25,118 nucleotides of DNA from a virus. Every line of letters begins with the position of its first letter. Within the stretch, counting starts at the first letter, position 1. Positions 6,192 to 19,564 of the stretch are shown here, piece after piece. Below the pieces are notes generated by a model, which made no database searches, was not told the origin of the DNA, and was given only the letters and a program-made list of their open reading frames with translations. The stretch spans positions 1 through 25,118 of the IMG/VR virus record IMGVR_UViG_3300030102_002052; one strand, 5' to 3'. The position numbers and the translations under genes were made by a program.

Positions 6192-6220
6192 TTTATATGT
6201 AGGGTTTTTTAAAGTTTCCA
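6192..6220 (-). promoter_or_regulatory. Leftward sigma70-like promoter of the left arm
   Basis: On the minus strand, TGGAAA (6220-6215, 4 of 6 to TTGACA) and TATAAA (6197-6192, 5 of 6 to TATAAT) are 17 bp apart. The predicted start near 6184 lies about 45 nt before the first gene. The recurrent palindrome (6215-6225) covers the -35, a usual place for a repressor site. Confidence 0.5.
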
Positions 6221-6225
6221 GGAAT
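6215..6225. promoter_or_regulatory. Operator-like palindrome, promoter copy (TTTCCAGGAAT)
   Basis: This is one of four occurrences of an 11-bp palindrome with consensus ATTCC-A-GGAAT. The others are at 4448-4458 (exact), 5875-5885 (exact) and 5256-5266 (ATCCCTGGAAT). Three of the four lie 45-76 bp upstream of leftward start codons, and this one overlaps the -35 of a predicted promoter. It is probably the binding site of a phage regulator. Confidence 0.45.
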
Positions 6226-6444
6226 AGTATTAACAGGCTATCCCTCTCTAGTTCATGTTTAAAAATGGTACATTGTCACCCTATATGGTCACAAAATAGG
6301 GTTATATATACCTAGAATAAGCCCAATGTTTATAAGGTGCGTTTGTCCTATAATACCTATTATGTTGCGTTTATTATGGGGGGGTTTAATGTTGACCCCC
6401 ATGTAATGTAATGTGTACCCTCAAAAAATATGCTGTTAAAACAG
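6226..6444. other. Non-coding control region, left part
   Basis: No supported gene. Two inverted repeats are visible: CCCTAT (6279-6284) with ATAGGG (6296-6301), and ATGGGGG (6376-6382) with CCCCCAT (6396-6402), the latter containing a run of seven G. It is AT-rich overall. With the repeats that follow it may be part of a replication origin or of divergent promoter control. Confidence 0.4.
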
Positions 6445-6491
6445 GTACTATATATTGTGGTACTACATATAGTGGTGTACTAAATATAGTA
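6445..6491. repeat. Three iteron-like 15-bp repeats
   Basis: Imperfect copies of GTACTAnATATAGTG occur at 6445-6459, 6460-6474 and 6477-6491. The first two abut and the third is offset by 2 bp. Each is itself partly palindromic (TACTA...TAGTA). Spacing near one and a half helical turns in an AT-rich region between diverging arms suits an initiator or regulator binding array. Confidence 0.5.
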
Positions 6492-6507
6492 TGTTTCACT
6501 AGTAAAG

Positions 6508-6535
6508 AAGATTGTGAAAAATATTTCACTATCTT
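6508..6535. repeat. 28-bp imperfect palindrome
   Basis: AAGAT-t-GTGAAA (6508-6519) pairs with TTTCAC-t-ATCTT (6524-6535) around AATA, giving 11 pairs and one T/T mismatch. It directly follows the iteron-like repeats and could be part of an origin or an operator. Confidence 0.5.
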
Positions 6536-6860
6536 TATTGATTGTGATTAATAACTGGTAATGTAGAGTGGTTCTAACCCTGTGTCACTCCCTCCCAAAA
6601 ACCAGAATGAACTAAAATCAGTAACATTTAAATATGTGAAGTAATAGCCTATCACGCTAGTTACCATGGTCCTGCTAATCCACTTATTTAATGAAGTATG
6701 GTCAAGAATCCTTTTCTAAAAGCAGGAAGGACTCCTTGCTTGTTTTCTTACTATAACACCTTTTGATTTAAATGCTAGTATTTAGGTAATGGGGTTTTTG
6801 TATAGTAGGAGTTTCCTCCTTTCGCCTACGAGCAGTCACACAGAAACCCCATAGATTTAC

Positions 6861-6887
6861 TTGATTATATACAATATGTGGTATACT
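6861..6887 (+). promoter_or_regulatory. Rightward extended -10 promoter of the right arm
   Basis: TTGATT (6861-6866) and TATACT (6882-6887) are separated by 15 bp, and TGG before the -10 makes an extended -10 (TGnTATACT). The predicted start near 6894 is followed at once by the 6897-6961 hairpin. The first gene is at 7268, giving a leader of about 375 nt. Confidence 0.55.
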
Positions 6888-6905
6888 TTTTGTATCAAGA
6901 AAGGC

Positions 6906-6947
6906 TTATGAGTCTTTATCAACCCTTCGTAGGGTAAATTTATTCAT
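6906..6947 (-). CDS. Possible 13-codon mini-ORF with strong ribosome site
   Basis: On the minus strand AAAGGAGGGCT precedes an ATG at 6947 encoding MNKFTLRRVDKDS and a stop. The ribosome site is excellent, but the same bases form one arm of the 6897-6961 plus-strand hairpin, so the match may be a by-product of that structure. There is no gene immediately downstream for it to regulate. Very tentative. Confidence 0.2.
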   Translation of the reverse strand: MNKFTLRRVDKDS

Positions 6948-7267
6948 AGCCCTCCTTTCTTTGTTTGTGTGGTACACGCCTCACGCAAGTGAGGCAGTAC
7001 TGCTGCTAAGAAAAAAAATTTTTTTACCACCTAATTCAATAACAACACTACACTATATCTGCCTGGAAAAGTTCTAGGTTGGTTGTATGGGGATATAACC
7101 AGTATGTAAAATAAATATCTACATACGAAATGAAAAAGAAAATGCTTGAAATCATAAAGACAAAAGTGTGTGTTGGTTAAAGTAATTTCATTTTCTTTCA
7201 TAACAGTTTGGACACTGTATACGAGCAGAACCTCACCTCGGTGAGGTTTTGTGCTATAGTGATGATT

Positions 7268-7333
7268 ATGAAAATGTATAAAAACAAAAAGAAAAAATCT
7301 AAAGGTAAAAGCAAAAAGAAACTAGGTTACTAA
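7268..7333 (+). CDS. Lysine-rich 21-aa peptide
   Basis: ATG at 7268 (or in frame at 7262) encodes MKMYKNKKKKSKGKSKKKLGY. More than half of the residues are Lys. There is no clear Shine-Dalgarno, but the stop overlaps the next ATG as TAATG, the coupling used along this whole arm, which supports it. A peptide this basic would bind nucleic acid. It is the first open frame after the structured leader. The small size keeps confidence low. Confidence 0.4.
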   Translation: MKMYKNKKKKSKGKSKKKLGY

Positions 7334-7458
7334 TGCCTTACAAAGATTATTCAGCAAAACAAAAGAAACTAGCTGCTGTAGCACCACCTTTTAAAAAGAT
7401 TACTGCTGCAGATTTTCAAAAGCTAAGAGATGGTAAGAGAAGACCTAAGATAACATAA
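7333..7458 (+). CDS. Small basic protein, 41 aa
   Basis: The frame starts at the ATG of TAATG (7333) and ends at another TAATG (7456-7460), so it is precisely fitted between two genes. It reads MPYKDYSAKQKKLAAVAPPF followed by KKITAADFQKLRDGKRRP. The pattern (KQKKLA...P...KITaaDF..LR) is one I have seen in small proteins near phage packaging genes. The role is unknown and the protein is basic, about one quarter Lys/Arg. Confidence 0.6.
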   Translation: MPYKDYSAKQKKLAAVAPPFKKITAADFQKLRDGKRRPKIT

Positions 7459-12300: not shown

Positions 12301-12656
12301 TGCCAAGAGGTAGAAAACCTTCAACACTTAAACAAATGACAGATACCAAAGTAGATGGTGCGTATGCAGATTTAGAAGCTATACCAGGTGATGAGTTTGG
12401 TGGAAGATTATTACAAGAAGATATGATTGCTTTAGAAAGAGAAAGGGTAGCAAGTGATACAGGTGTTACTGCTAGTCAAGTAAGAGGATTTGAAGCACAA
12501 GATATAGCTAGATTGACTGAAAGAGAATCAGAGTCAATAATGACAGATAGCACTAGAGGCACTCAAACAACATTACCATCAGGTACTAATACACAAGTTT
12601 TAGTAGATATGATTAAAGATAATTATGGTTATTTTGTTTCAAGAAGGTTTAATTAA
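12300..12656 (+). CDS. Hypothetical virion-region protein, 118 aa
   Basis: The ATG overlaps the previous stop (TAATG) with GGGGAG upstream. The N-terminus is basic (MPRGRKPSTLKQM). The body is charged and helical (ALERERVASDTGVTASQVRG, IARLTERESESIM) with a Thr/Gly-rich linker and a conserved-looking end (DNYGYFVSRRFN). It has no cysteine. The function is unknown; the location in the packaging/virion block and the basic head suggest DNA or portal contact. Confidence 0.65.
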   Translation: MPRGRKPSTLKQMTDTKVDGAYADLEAIPGDEFGGRLLQEDMIALERERVASDTGVTASQVRGFEAQDIARLTERESESIMTDSTRGTQTTLPSGTNTQVLVDMIKDNYGYFVSRRFN

Positions 12657-15600
12657 TGTCATTATGGACAAATTGGAGTCAAAACTGGTATAAGGGTTAC
12701 AAGGAAGAACAACTCTATAATAAACAATTAAATAAAGCAGAAGCAGATGCAGGACCAGATGTACAAAAGTTTGTACAAAAATACGAAGAACTAGAATCAC
12801 TTACACCTACAGAAGACCCTGAGTTTATAGCTGCAGCAGCAGACATGGGTTTGTCAGACCAAGAATACATTAGTGTTTGGTCACAAACTAGTACACCACC
12901 TGTAAGTTACACAAACAACAGAAGTCAAGGTGTAGATGAAAAAACAAAACAATCTTATGCTTTAGGACCTGCACTTATGTTGAAGTTAACAGGTGACTTT
13001 TTTGAAAATGTTGGTACAGCTACAAAAGAAGGTGCAAAAAGAGCAGCAGATAAGTTTGGTTCTTATTTGTTTGGAACACTTCGTATTTTTGCAGATGGTC
13101 TTATACAAGGTGCTGATAAAACAGTTAGAAATTACAGTGTTGAGTATCAAGCAGCATTAGAAGAAGAATTAAATAAAAAAGGTAAAACATTGTCTGATGT
13201 TGTACAGATAGCAGGTTATGAAAACTTAAAAGATAACGAGTTACCTTTTATACCTGCTTTAGTTGCACATGCAAAAGCATTTAGAAATTATAACGACCAG
13301 AGAACTGCAAAAATAATAAACAATGATACATACTACACACCATCAGATACAGCAAAGAATTTTTTAGTAGCTAGAGGTTTAACAGATGAAGAGGGTAATC
13401 CTTTAGTAACTAAAACAGATTTAGATATATTTAATGAACTATTTCCAGATATTATTGGTGAAAAAATAACAGCACTTAAAAATGAAAAAGGTAGAGATTT
13501 ATCATTTGGAGAAAAGGCAGGATTGTTTTTCCAAACTTTAGATAACATTATTGACCCAGATACAGGTGCAAAAGGTATTGCAGATGTAGTTGCATTAAGC
13601 CCTGAGTTTGATAGACAACAAGAACTAAACGAAACATTTTTTAATCAAGCTATACCTGTAGGATTAGGTGATGGTATTGTCTTTGGTTTAACAGGTAACT
13701 TATCTACTAATTATGGTTATGCAAACTATGTAACAGAATATTTAGATAACGAGTATGACAGGATAGAACAAGAAGCACAGGTAGCTTTAGACCAAGGAAA
13801 AATATCAGGAACTCAATACTTTGATATATTAGAGAACGCAGAACAAACAAAGTTCAACGCTATACAAGATTTAGGTTATGAAAAAACTAGAAGTATGGCA
13901 GGATTCTTTGCAGGACTTATTAACACAGCAAAGTATATATTTCTTGACCCTTTAAATTACATTGTTCCTGGTGCAGGTTTATTACAAAGAACAACTGCTG
14001 CTAATTTTGATGAGGTTCTTACATCACTAGGTAGGTCATTACCAGAACAATTAGACAATGGTTTAACTGCTAGACAGATATTTGATGATAATAAAGAAAC
14101 ATTTGAAGGTATTGCAAATTTAATTGTACAAGCAAAAAATGAAAACAGACCAGTTGCTACATACTTAATGAACGAAGGTTTTCATCCAGACTTTGCTTTT
14201 AGAATTAAATCTGCTGATACTACTGCAGATGACATAATGCAAACATTAGAACAAGGCATAGAAAATGGTTATGTTACAGATATGTTTTATGGTGGTAGTT
14301 TTATGGGTAAAGGTAAAAATAAACATTTACAATCAAAAGTATTATACGAAAGCAACTTAGAAGCATTAATAAACAAAGAATTAGATGAAGGTATAACAGC
14401 AGCATACAAAAGAGGTGGAGGTTTTAGAGATACTTTCTTAGCTAGAGATGTTAAATTACCTAAGTTAAAACCTGCAGATTTGCAGAATCCAAAAGAAGCC
14501 ATGGAGTATTTTATTAGATATGGATATGCAAGTAAAGTACCAGAAAGCAGAATAGAAGAATTAGCAACAGAGTTTTATGATGCTATATCAAATGGTCAAT
14601 ATTTTCAAGCAAAAGAAATATTTCAAAACAAATTAGTATTTGGAGAATTAGGATTACAACTTAAAAGTACTTATGGTTTAACAGACAATGAGATAGATGA
14701 CTTTATGAGTAAGTATTATCTTAAAAATGACAAACAAGGTTTTAGTGATGCCGAGTTTAAACCTATGTCACCATCAAGAAGTCCAGAGTTTTATGACCCA
14801 ATGGAAGTAGATATTATAACAAATAAAATGTTTGGTTCTGTTGCATCTGAACAAGATATGATACACCTCACAAAACAATCATTAGAACTATATGGTCAGT
14901 TAAAAAACTTAGATATACATGGACCTGATATACAAGGTTTGCTTAGAGCAACATCTGCTAAAAGAAGAGCAAGAAGATTAATTACAAACAAAGAGGGTGA
15001 TGAAGAAATCTTTGACATAGTTCGTAAAGCAGCAGATGAAGGTGTCAAAGTAGATTTTTGGAAAGAGAATAGTCCATTAAGAGAAGTAATTGATGATGTA
15101 TTTACAGACTTTGATGACCCTAACATTTTATTTAATGCTATGGAAAAAGGTGTACAGACATACGACAATGTTGTGTTTGGTTATATGAGAAACTTTAGAT
15201 ACCCTGCATTTTTGTTGTTTAGAGCTAGTTATCCATTAAAACTAATTGTTGATGCCATGGTTAAGTTTAATATGTTTGGAGTAAGAAACATGCTTAAAAA
15301 TCCTGTTGACTCATTAAAACTTATGCTTAATGACCCAGAGGGTATATTGACACGAGCTTTTGGAAAACCTTCAACTATGATTAGTGGACCATATAGAACA
15401 ACAAAAGAAATAGAAGCAACAACAAAAAGTCTAAAATTTTTAAATGATTTAATACCTAAAAGAGTAAGAAAGTCTTTAGGTGTGTTATCTGATTCCCAAG
15501 AGTTTGGTGCACCAGAAGTAGCACAGTTGTTCTCAGCAGATGTCAAGTTTGTAAACAATAGATTTATTACAAACACAGGACATACTCTTGTTAATAAACA

Positions 15601-18600
15601 AAGTGATGAACATGTTAAAGCGTATGAATATTTCTTATATAAATACATTGATGATGACCTTGCACCTGCTATAGCAGGAATGAAAAGACAAGGTTATACC
15701 ATAGAGCAAATGGCAAAGACATTACAAACAGAACCTGCTTTTCTTAAAATTATAGATGATGCCAATCAAGGGTTTCAAATTAGAGGACCAAAACAAAGAA
15801 ACTTGGATGTTGGTGTTGTTCAGACAGAAGAAGATTTTATAAGACTTGCAAAACACATGAGTCAAAGCATAGACAACTACACAGGAGGTTCTTCTGATTT
15901 ACTAAATGTTATTGCTGATGCAAAGATAGGAAACATTAATCTTAGAGATTTGTCTTCTACAACACCTGATATAGCAGAAAAAGCATCAAGAAGAATTGCT
16001 ACATTGTATAACAAGAATGTAGATAAATTGCCTTTTGAAATACCATATCCAAAAGTAGATGCTGAACGACAAATTTTAGAAGGAAAGAAAACATTTAGAA
16101 ACCTTTTAAACTCTTTGTTCTTTGCTACTACACAAGGAGAGGGTTCATTTATTCGTATACCTTATTTGAAACAAGCGTATGATGAATTTGTTAAAGCATT
16201 CTCTGTATTTGGTAGAAGAGCAGAGTTAGATGAGTTACTTAAAATACATAATGATGAAGACAGTGTTATTAATTTATCTGATGATGTTATAGAGGTAATA
16301 CAAAAAGAAAGAGATAGAGCAGTATCTACATTAGAAGAATATGATGAAGTATTAAATGTAAATATAAAACCACAAGTCACACAAAAGACTTACAAAGGAG
16401 AAACAACATTTACTGCAACTGTATTTACAGAACAAGGTGGTAATAGAAGTGTTAACTATCTTGCAAAAAACCCTCTCAATAAAAATAGTATAAAGTTTAC
16501 AACTGATGTACAAGAAGCAGAAAAATTAGTTTATGGTTCTGCAGATAATATAGCTGAGGGAAGACTAGGATTTGATGATTCCAAGGTAGGTACATTTGTA
16601 ACTAGTTTTAAGAAAGATGAAGTTATTTACAATGGTGCATTACCTAACGAAGGTTTATTAAAAGATGTACTTAAAAATAGTTATGACAGTGGTTATGCAG
16701 ATAGTGATATTGACATAATAATTAAAGAGGCAATAGATTATTTAAGTAAACCAGGTGCAACAAAAAAAGGATTAGAAGAGATACTAGGTTTATCTAACAA
16801 GCAACCAAACCTTACTGAACTTAGAAGTAAGTTTCAAGCATCTACAAAAGGTAAGTCACAGAAAAACAATTATAGTGGGGAACTTACATTTGATGTAGGA
16901 AGAAAAACTATAGAAAAAGTATTAGGTAAAAAAATAAATGTAGCTGTTCCAAAACAAAACATTACTGATGAACTCATTGATGAGGTATATAAATTTTCAC
17001 AAGCAAACATAGATGGATTTAGTTTAGATTTAGGAAACCCAGAGTCTTGGGGTAAAGAAGCTATGTTGTATGTATCACCATACAAAACAAGACAGCTTGT
17101 TCTCACAGGTAAAGATTCTTTAACTAAAGATGCAGTAACTATGTTTGTTAGAGATAATCAAGATAAATTAAGATTAGTTGACCATGTTCTAGGTGGTAAA
17201 TGGGATGAAGCAAGAGGTCAGTGGGTATTAGATGTATCAGTAAAAATAAACAGAGGAGTAAAAGATACAAGAATTGATGCAGGAGTACAAGCATATAATA
17301 AGGCTAAGTATCTTGCATTAGCAGCAGACCAGGTAAGTTTTGGAGAATCTTATTTAGTAAAAGAGGGTGAAGAAATAATAGAAGCCTTGTTTAAACAAGA
17401 TGACACATACGAAGTAATAAATAACTCTGCTGTATATAACCTACTTAGAACTAAAGGTAAAAAATTATTAAATGAAAAACAAGTTAAAGCATTAGGTGAT
17501 GAGCCTATAGTCCGAGGTAAAAATTATTTGGCTAGTAGGCAAGGTAAAGAGATAGAAGAAAAAGCATTTGTTGCAGATACTATATTTGAAAAGTCATTAA
17601 TCAAAGGTATCTTTGATAGAAAGAATAAATCTTTAGAAGTCTTTAATCCAAGAACTAGCAGCATTATGCAAAACATGGATGAATACAGTTACACAACATT
17701 GTTAGATATGAATGATGTTAGAGCAAATATAACTAGAAACATGAGTGCTATGGACATACATCAAAGAGCATTAGAAGCAGCTATGGAAGCAAACGCTAAC
17801 TTGTTATACAACTTGACTGAAAGAGGATATTTTGCACAAGCATACAGAAGTTCTTTTGCTTTCTTTGAAGCCTATCGTGAGTATATGGGTAGATATTTAT
17901 TACTTACTGCAAACAATCCTAAAGCAGCTGTACAAATAGGTCAGGGTGTTAGAAGAGGTATTGAGAACAATGTTATTGCACAAGATAGATTTGGTGATTT
18001 GTATGTGTTCATGCCTACAGCAGGAACACCATTACAAGTACACACTAAGTCTGAACTAGGTGGATTAGCCACAGAAGATGTATCAGATGAGGAAAGTAGA
18101 GTATATATTAAAAAAGGTTACCCACTTAAATCATTAGGTGTTGGTGGTGTAGGTTACTTGCCATCATTAGGTGATGGTATAACTATGCCTTTAGGTTTTT
18201 TACTTAGAAACAAACCTGCAGGTAGAAGATGGGTAGAAAAAAATATTATGGCAGGATTTCAGTTACCTTTCAGTGAAGAGCCATTATCACTAACAGAGTT
18301 ACCTGCAGAGTTAGTAGATATGTCAATACCATCAGTTGCAAAGAATTGGTTTAATTCTATGGGGGATTCATTCGGTTTAGAAGGAGTAGATGAGGATATA
18401 TGGATTTCTTCTACTACAAATGCTATGCAGATAGCAGCACAGTTACACCCAGAGTATGCAGATGATGTAGATAAGTTACAAGAAATAGGTGCATTAGTCA
18501 GAGATAACTTATACACAATAAAAACTTGGGATAGATTTGTTAGCCCATTTGCACCAAAACTTAGTGTGCTTTACAAGATAGAAGGTAATGAACAAAGTTT

Positions 18601-19564
18601 TAATGAGTGGTATGGAGAAGAAGGATATGAAGCAGGTATTGCATATAACAATATGGTTGAGTTAGCTGCTATACATGGTTTTTATCAAGATATGAGAAAA
18701 CAATGGAACTCTATACTTGGACCAAGACAGGGAGAATATTACGCATTACTTGAAGTTGTAAGATTGTTAGGTTTAGATAAGTATGACATAAACGAACAAC
18801 TTACATCTGCAGGATTACAAGTTAGAGGTAAGACAGTATCAGAGGCAGGTAGAGTACCTAGAACTACAAAAGAATATGAGTTTGTAAACGCACACCCAGA
18901 ATTAGCTGAAGACTTTGGTCCTGTACTGCCATATTTTTCAAGAAATATAGATGAAGGTAAAATAGATTTTAGTGGTTATCAAGCTGTTAAATACATGGGA
19001 TTAATAACTCCTAAAACAGGTGATGAAATGTATTTAGAGGTACAAAGATATTTAGCATCAATTGTAGGTAGAGCAGCAAAAGATGATAAGTTACAAAGTC
19101 TTATAGCTACAGGCACAGATAGTCCTGAAAATATACAAGCCTCTAACGCAGTCATAGATGCAAAACTTGGTAATTGGTTTCCTATGGCTTATGGTAAGTC
19201 AGAACAAATGAATAAAGTTTTAGGTGGTGAATTACCAGAAAGATTGCAAAATGGTGTGCTTGTAGATTATTTAGTAAGAGCAGTGGATGACCCAAGGTTT
19301 GCAGAGTTTGATATTACTCCTGCTATAAAAGAATATGTAGAGGCTAGACAAGCAGTAATAGATACAATACAAGATTTTAAAAACTATCCTAATGAACCAA
19401 AAGCAGTTGATTGGTTAATTACAAATGATTCTAATGAAGCACAAGAAATTAGAATGAAATTATATGATAAAGGATATGAGATTATAGCAAAACAACCTCT
19501 GTTTATGGTAGTATTTGATGAAGTATTTAGTTATGAGTTAAATAGATTTGGAGTCAACAACTAA
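12656..19564 (+). CDS. Giant cysteine-free virion-type protein, 2302 aa
   Basis: One uninterrupted 6.9-kb frame starting in a TAATG overlap; it is over a quarter of the window. I see no cysteine in 2302 residues. It is mostly helical and charged. Notable stretches are a hydrophobic region near 414-440 (GFFAGLINTAKYIFLDPLNY), a second near 843-878 (FRYPAFLLFRASYPLKLIVD), and an alpha/beta domain near 1450-1575 with LVDHVLGGKWDEARGQWVLD. A helical block near 1697-1757 includes FFEAYREYMGRYLLLTANNP, and RFVSPFAPKLSVLY lies near 1960. No RNA-polymerase motifs (TxxGR, HDS) as in the N4 virion polymerase were seen, and no protease or glycosidase site. The position between portal and scaffold and the company of a transglycosylase-like gene suggest an internal protein ejected with the DNA. 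I recall similar large proteins in actinobacteriophages; this is not verified. Confidence 0.8.
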   Translation: MSLWTNWSQNWYKGYKEEQLYNKQLNKAEADAGPDVQKFVQKYEELESLTPTEDPEFIAAAADMGLSDQEYISVWSQTSTPPVSYTNNRSQGVDEKTKQSYALGPALMLKLTGDFFENVGTATKEGAKRAADKFGSYLFGTLRIFADGLIQGADKTVRNYSVEYQAALEEELNKKGKTLSDVVQIAGYENLKDNELPFIPALVAHAKAFRNYNDQRTAKIINNDTYYTPSDTAKNFLVARGLTDEEGNPLVTKTDLDIFNELFPDIIGEKITALKNEKGRDLSFGEKAGLFFQTLDNIIDPDTGAKGIADVVALSPEFDRQQELNETFFNQAIPVGLGDGIVFGLTGNLSTNYGYANYVTEYLDNEYDRIEQEAQVALDQGKISGTQYFDILENAEQTKFNAIQDLGYEKTRSMAGFFAGLINTAKYIFLDPLNYIVPGAGLLQRTTAANFDEVLTSLGRSLPEQLDNGLTARQIFDDNKETFEGIANLIVQAKNENRPVATYLMNEGFHPDFAFRIKSADTTADDIMQTLEQGIENGYVTDMFYGGSFMGKGKNKHLQSKVLYESNLEALINKELDEGITAAYKRGGGFRDTFLARDVKLPKLKPADLQNPKEAMEYFIRYGYASKVPESRIEELATEFYDAISNGQYFQAKEIFQNKLVFGELGLQLKSTYGLTDNEIDDFMSKYYLKNDKQGFSDAEFKPMSPSRSPEFYDPMEVDIITNKMFGSVASEQDMIHLTKQSLELYGQLKNLDIHGPDIQGLLRATSAKRRARRLITNKEGDEEIFDIVRKAADEGVKVDFWKENSPLREVIDDVFTDFDDPNILFNAMEKGVQTYDNVVFGYMRNFRYPAFLLFRASYPLKLIVDAMVKFNMFGVRNMLKNPVDSLKLMLNDPEGILTRAFGKPSTMISGPYRTTKEIEATTKSLKFLNDLIPKRVRKSLGVLSDSQEFGAPEVAQLFSADVKFVNNRFITNTGHTLVNKQSDEHVKAYEYFLYKYIDDDLAPAIAGMKRQGYTIEQMAKTLQTEPAFLKIIDDANQGFQIRGPKQRNLDVGVVQTEEDFIRLAKHMSQSIDNYTGGSSDLLNVIADAKIGNINLRDLSSTTPDIAEKASRRIATLYNKNVDKLPFEIPYPKVDAERQILEGKKTFRNLLNSLFFATTQGEGSFIRIPYLKQAYDEFVKAFSVFGRRAELDELLKIHNDEDSVINLSDDVIEVIQKERDRAVSTLEEYDEVLNVNIKPQVTQKTYKGETTFTATVFTEQGGNRSVNYLAKNPLNKNSIKFTTDVQEAEKLVYGSADNIAEGRLGFDDSKVGTFVTSFKKDEVIYNGALPNEGLLKDVLKNSYDSGYADSDIDIIIKEAIDYLSKPGATKKGLEEILGLSNKQPNLTELRSKFQASTKGKSQKNNYSGELTFDVGRKTIEKVLGKKINVAVPKQNITDELIDEVYKFSQANIDGFSLDLGNPESWGKEAMLYVSPYKTRQLVLTGKDSLTKDAVTMFVRDNQDKLRLVDHVLGGKWDEARGQWVLDVSVKINRGVKDTRIDAGVQAYNKAKYLALAADQVSFGESYLVKEGEEIIEALFKQDDTYEVINNSAVYNLLRTKGKKLLNEKQVKALGDEPIVRGKNYLASRQGKEIEEKAFVADTIFEKSLIKGIFDRKNKSLEVFNPRTSSIMQNMDEYSYTTLLDMNDVRANITRNMSAMDIHQRALEAAMEANANLLYNLTERGYFAQAYRSSFAFFEAYREYMGRYLLLTANNPKAAVQIGQGVRRGIENNVIAQDRFGDLYVFMPTAGTPLQVHTKSELGGLATEDVSDEESRVYIKKGYPLKSLGVGGVGYLPSLGDGITMPLGFLLRNKPAGRRWVEKNIMAGFQLPFSEEPLSLTELPAELVDMSIPSVAKNWFNSMGDSFGLEGVDEDIWISSTTNAMQIAAQLHPEYADDVDKLQEIGALVRDNLYTIKTWDRFVSPFAPKLSVLYKIEGNEQSFNEWYGEEGYEAGIAYNNMVELAAIHGFYQDMRKQWNSILGPRQGEYYALLEVVRLLGLDKYDINEQLTSAGLQVRGKTVSEAGRVPRTTKEYEFVNAHPELAEDFGPVLPYFSRNIDEGKIDFSGYQAVKYMGLITPKTGDEMYLEVQRYLASIVGRAAKDDKLQSLIATGTDSPENIQASNAVIDAKLGNWFPMAYGKSEQMNKVLGGELPERLQNGVLVDYLVRAVDDPRFAEFDITPAIKEYVEARQAVIDTIQDFKNYPNEPKAVDWLITNDSNEAQEIRMKLYDKGYEIIAKQPLFMVVFDEVFSYELNRFGVNN

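Follow-up and report, generated by a model that had tools for sequence, protein, structure and literature searches.

The hairpin-rich gap between the two diverging gene arms of this virus, studied here within a window of 25,118 nucleotides, is by comparative sequence analysis a source of functional RNA and encodes at least two divergent structured RNAs: a leftward RNA of ~170 nt, whose conserved body occupies 6574 to 6742 on the minus strand, and a rightward unit on the plus strand at about 6788 to 7252. The division into two units follows from the wobble pairs, which are of the minus strand in the left part and of the plus strand in the right part. The leftward RNA constitutes a previously undescribed, strongly conserved family of folded RNAs, defined by cmsearch with the models R1 and R2, by 144 motif sequences, by 29 portal loci, and by covariation.

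The original prediction had proposed the interval from 6641 to 7254 as a candidate large phage RNA on the plus strand. The inverted repeats on which it was built are present in a gene-free gap: 6500 to 7400 contains 22 inverted-repeat pairs of at least 8 nt (for example, 6789-6801/6840-6852, 7226-7237/7240-7251, and 7135-7144/7189-7198), and the hairpin-rich stretch is without open reading frames of 60 aa or more and without detectable tRNAs. The predicted RNA fold of 6620 to 7270 is lower in energy than those of dinucleotide-shuffled sequences, for plus (z = -4.4) and for minus (z = -8.8) alike (20 shuffles per strand). The proposed covariation check across homologues was run and yielded covarying pairs, which support a structured phage RNA; however, a single plus-strand RNA of 0.6 kb was ruled out, since P1, the 5' hairpin of the leftward RNA, is unbroken solely on the minus strand. 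The predicted bounds were slightly off, as the leftmost element extends to 6574, and the stems described as forming only in plus-strand RNA hold for 6969 to 7252, whereas the wobbles within 6574 to 6742 mark the minus strand.

The gene downstream of the gap encodes the terminase large subunit (terL, phrog_38 type), and the leftward RNA adjoins it at a divergent junction in a large group of uncultured tailed phages. Homologues were gathered through terminase, portal, or motif searches. A terL scan returned 80 viral contigs, and by blastn most of the contigs long enough to include the site keep the non-coding region in the same position. A conserved 19-mer (6574 to 6592) matched at least 119 stretches among the matches listed, and a subset pattern of the conserved motif matched 57; altogether, 144 distinct motif-bearing sequences were obtained. 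The portal-protein scan served as an independent fetch of further loci, not by motif, from a viral contig collection that holds at least 592 portal-protein relatives. A model built from terL- and motif-derived sequences located the leftward RNA in 29 of 54 portal-fetched loci; most of the others end short of the site, and two (L284 and L305) extend to it without carrying the RNA. R1 and R2 score the RNA at 202 to 204 bits in the window, and it is single-copy in six long genomes. Matches of a 17-mer in bacterial genomes were rejected (best R1 score 13.6 bits; no R2 match on the five of them searched). Judging from contig names, the source contigs are mostly marine, and the only cultured relatives are distant Streptomyces phages at about 22 to 24% identity.

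The strand of the leftward RNA is set by two observations: the P1 helix is unbroken on the minus strand only, and across all counted helices of the minus-strand alignment A2 (67 sequences) the minus reading gives 248 G-U cells vs. 29 A-C cells. The consensus energy is likewise lower on this strand (-45.3 for minus vs. -34.0 for plus). An extended -10 element, TGTTATAGT, lies at 6750 to 6758 (minus strand), which makes the RNA promoter-proximal, and its pattern TGNTANNNT precedes the P1 loop by 31 to 33 nt in 82 and by 37 to 38 nt in 18, thus in 100 of 110 unique loci. Because of this fixed distance before P1, we place the probable 5' end near 6742; the conserved domain ends on its 3' side at 6574. 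Beyond the body, an AT-rich minus-strand hairpin (6508 to 6535) is a weak candidate for the 3' end of the transcript. In 67 loci, a comparable position holds hairpins unrelated in sequence, with a median tail of about 5 T in 10, and the weakness of these terminator-like hairpins across many lineages makes read-through into the leftward operon possible. Three loci (L177, L225, and L227) carry an insertion of ~80 to 100 nt in the 3' half of the RNA, between the 3' motif and the alpha strand described below.

The 5' half of the leftward RNA is organized around two hairpins with complementary loops. P1 (6704 to 6736, minus strand) is a 10-bp hairpin (6727-6736 paired with 6704-6713) in which both partners vary at nine of the 10 pairs, and its loop, UCCUGCU (6721 to 6727), is complementary to the loop AGCAGGA (6670 to 6676) of P2 (6667 to 6682, minus strand). 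This complementarity is complete (7/7) in 153 of 166 sequences and 6/7 in the remaining 13, and is preserved through many sequence versions. P3 (6641 to 6664, minus strand) follows as GUAA-C-UAGC ... GCUA-UUAC, with covariation at 6656-6648 (GC in 49, CG in 18). Taken together on A2, P1, P2, the kissing contact, P3, and the alpha helix have 94.1% of cells paired, with changes on both sides in 22 of 31 pairs and 318 double-change cells vs. 97 in shuffles and 39 to 88 when the partners were slid. Against a tree-simulated null, computed with our own script rather than R-scape, the pairs 6724-6673, 6639-6585, 6656-6648, and 6734-6706 reach E < 0.02, and 6624-6585 reaches E = 0.05. Single core sequences are no more stable than their shuffles (z about 0). 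The consensus contains no convincing helix enclosing P1 and P2, and a gamma helix pairing CAUUC with GAGUG was ruled out by the lack of covariation in A2.

The 3' half contains two further helices that compete for one strand. The alpha helix joins YCAC (6636 to 6639) to GUGR (6585 to 6588) and is paired in 67 of 67 sequences, with changes on both sides at two pairs; the beta helix joins UGYUACU (6620 to 6626) to AGUGRCA (6583 to 6589), is 92.5% paired, and in 30 sequences differs in both partners at its Y/R pair. Both are read on the minus strand (6585 to 6639 and 6583 to 6626, respectively), and since they have the GUGR strand in common they are mutually exclusive. A divergent portal-derived group retains both in altered form, alpha as UCAU/AUGA and beta as GUCAU/AUGAC. 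With P1 to P3 fixed, beta is favoured in the window by computed energy (-20.6 vs. -16.0 kcal/mol for alpha). Given that GUGR is able to pair with either strand and that both pairings co-vary, we infer that the RNA would be two-state and switch-like in vivo. It is also possible that alpha, at only 4 bp, and beta combine in a base triple at 6585, 6624, and 6639 instead of being rival helices; a plus-strand Y-R-R base triple was replaced by the exclusive minus-strand helices. The G tracts at the 3' end (6578 to 6603, minus strand; GG-N2..5-GGG-N1..2-GGG-N8..9-GGG) occur in 66 of 67 sequences with varying spacer lengths, and the predicted minimum-energy fold of the G-tract RNA contains no quadruplex.

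The rightward unit has its own signals on the plus strand. An extended -10, TGCTAGTAT, lies at 6773 to 6781 as the putative rightward promoter, and the pattern TGNTANN[AT]T stands 32 to 38 nt before the hairpin motif in 53 of 54 loci. The 5' hairpin (6789 to 6852) has a conserved apical GGAGUUUCCUCCUUUCGCC, both-side changes at 6790-6851 and 6791-6850, and 15 G-U vs. 3 A-C on plus. It is followed by a second extended -10, TGGTATACT (6879 to 6887), with a similar element 52 to 55 nt after the hairpin motif in 38 of 54 loci; by a GCAA-loop hairpin (6969 to 7003; 6983-6990 and 6984-6989 covary) and two more hairpins (7062 to 7099; both-side pair changes among 44 sequences), all with plus-strand wobbles, G-U in the GCAA hairpin; and by a terminator-like hairpin (7225 to 7252) with loop UUCG, CUCG, or GCAA and then UUUUGUG. 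In this terminal hairpin 7232-7245, 7233-7244, and 7235-7242 covary, with 56 G-U vs. 0 A-C on plus. The length of the unit differs between relatives, and a compact clade has no room for it, as terL lies about 216 to 260 nt from the motif. Distinct from the leftward RNA, the unit at 6788 to 7252 may serve the rightward (terL) operon as its leader or as an RNA of that operon. Immediately ahead of the rightward genes, one more extended -10 on the plus strand, TGCTATAGT (7252 to 7260), partly coincides with the last bases of the terminal hairpin. Two plus-strand stretches, CCTCCTTTC (6813 to 6822) and CCTCCTTTCTTTG (6950 to 6961), look similar to the anti-Shine-Dalgarno sequence at the 3' terminus of 16S rRNA; they might serve as decoys or else be complementary to ribosome sites on the minus strand.

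On the other side, three tandem imperfect palindromes of 15 to 17 bp (6445 to 6492), operator- or iteron-like by sequence, recur at the same place in relatives. Genes of the leftward arm include HTH and recombination functions; in a 42.5-kb relative this arm comprises ~8.5 kb, including a recombination function, and the remainder is rightward. The structural arm of the window includes a 2,302-aa open frame (12656 to 19564) without confident Pfam or PHROG assignment. In L053/L054 (L054:61-470) and in L305 (600 to 960), the core RNA is absent and another conserved minus-strand element occupies the site, with common GAAACACAAA, TACYCAAGGA, and TTACARGTAAAGT stretches and a similar promoter ahead. 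A different conserved element behind a similar promoter in two lineages suggests that phages exchange RNAs here. At L054:380-470, the GGAGTTTCCTCC hairpin, along with its TGGTATTAT promoter, has the inverse orientation to that in the other phages.

The reading we favour over a cis leader, a primer, or a packaging RNA, tentatively and at slightly under an even chance, is that the leftward RNA is a stand-alone regulatory RNA, transcribed by the host polymerase and able to adopt two exchangeable folds. Host RNA polymerase would start from the extended -10 at 6750 to 6758 and release a transcript of about 170 to 240 nt, in which the 7-bp loop-loop contact would lock P1 to P2 and fix the 5' half. 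The GUGR strand would then pair in alpha or in beta, and the state adopted would expose or mask the invariant G-tract/CACAGGG tail to a protein or nucleic-acid partner. The RNA might act in trans or autoregulate in the service of infection. We propose a stand-alone RNA because, in the relative G001, about 400 nt and the operator-like repeats intervene before the first leftward gene, and because hairpins follow it. The same spacing weighs against a cis-acting leader of the leftward operon, as does the absence of any sequence shared between the downstream hairpins and the switch strands; such a leader, a put-like antiterminator or an attenuator in which elongation or attenuation would be controlled by the alpha/beta switch or by the tail of G tracts, is nevertheless a possible, if doubtful, explanation, given that the RNA begins the leftward transcription unit, that its exclusive helices are switch-like, and that HTH and recombination genes lie on this arm.

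A replication primer, in which the G-rich nascent transcript gives rise to an R-loop at an origin and the AT-rich tandem repeats at 6445 to 6492 serve as iterons, would account for the near-universal G tracts with flexible spacers (66/67) and for the repeats directly past the RNA end. The change in sign of GC skew at the gap would also fit; however, the skew tracks gene direction (in G001 it peaks ~8.5 kb away, where the genes turn) and was ruled out as origin evidence, and with no quadruplex in the predicted fold we regard a primer as rather improbable. A packaging RNA, forming a ring on the packaging motor through intermolecular loop-loop contacts as in phi29 pRNA, is improbable: terL is adjacent (as close as about 220 nt in the compact clade) and the two hairpins have fully complementary loops, but no helix surrounds both hairpins, TerL is of the ordinary phrog_38 type, transcription points away from terL, and Rfam yields no pRNA match. 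A packaging RNA invented independently for a second time, in the form of a two-state RNA whose loops pair between molecules into a ring or other multimer on the packaging machinery of phages that have an ordinary terminase, would be very improbable. The palindromic repeats on the left side would suit structured DNA only (operators or cruciforms) with no RNA, which is scarcely credible in view of the strand-asymmetric wobbles, the loop-loop complementarity, and the RNA-type tetraloops.

Among known RNAs, HK022 put RNA consists of two plain stems; it binds the polymerase and counteracts termination. The leftward RNA is similar in being structured and lying where a phage transcription unit starts, but it is about 170 nt long, with kissing loops and exclusive helices. 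Like phi29 pRNA, it is a small phage RNA with two hairpins and complementary, co-varying loops, here adjoining the packaging ATPase gene; unlike pRNA, its contact is 7 nt rather than a few, its hairpins lack an enclosing stem or three-way junction, and it has in addition the alpha/beta switch and G-tract tail. The phi29 RNA sits as a ring on the portal and is required for packaging. Conserved loop-loop contacts, a feature shared here, also occur in the large structured RNAs GOLLD and ROOL of phages (PMC12286853). Those two classes span several hundred nt, often lie near tRNA clusters, and assemble into homo-oligomeric nanocages. The c4 antisense RNA of phages, listed in PMC2864571, is a small, structured regulatory RNA, as the leftward RNA would be; for the latter, no Rfam match and no complementary target were identified. 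Neither the window nor any of ten diverse relatives gave a match to Rfam 15 at gathering score, and searches of 6200 to 7400 up to E = 10 gave only chance-like weak matches, of which istR and Chlorobi-1 were dismissed as single hairpins. Since no Rfam family matched, the RNA is by these tests neither GOLLD, ROOL, nor phi29 pRNA, yet its mode of action would resemble that of other compact phage RNAs that make loop-loop contacts. None of the open-access papers searched described an RNA lying upstream of terL.

The comparative support for this family is unusually strong, combining a 7-bp kissing contact with two mutually exclusive co-varying helices, and its covariance model makes metatranscriptome tests immediate. 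The different conserved element that some lineages carry at the locus suggests that phages exchange RNAs there.
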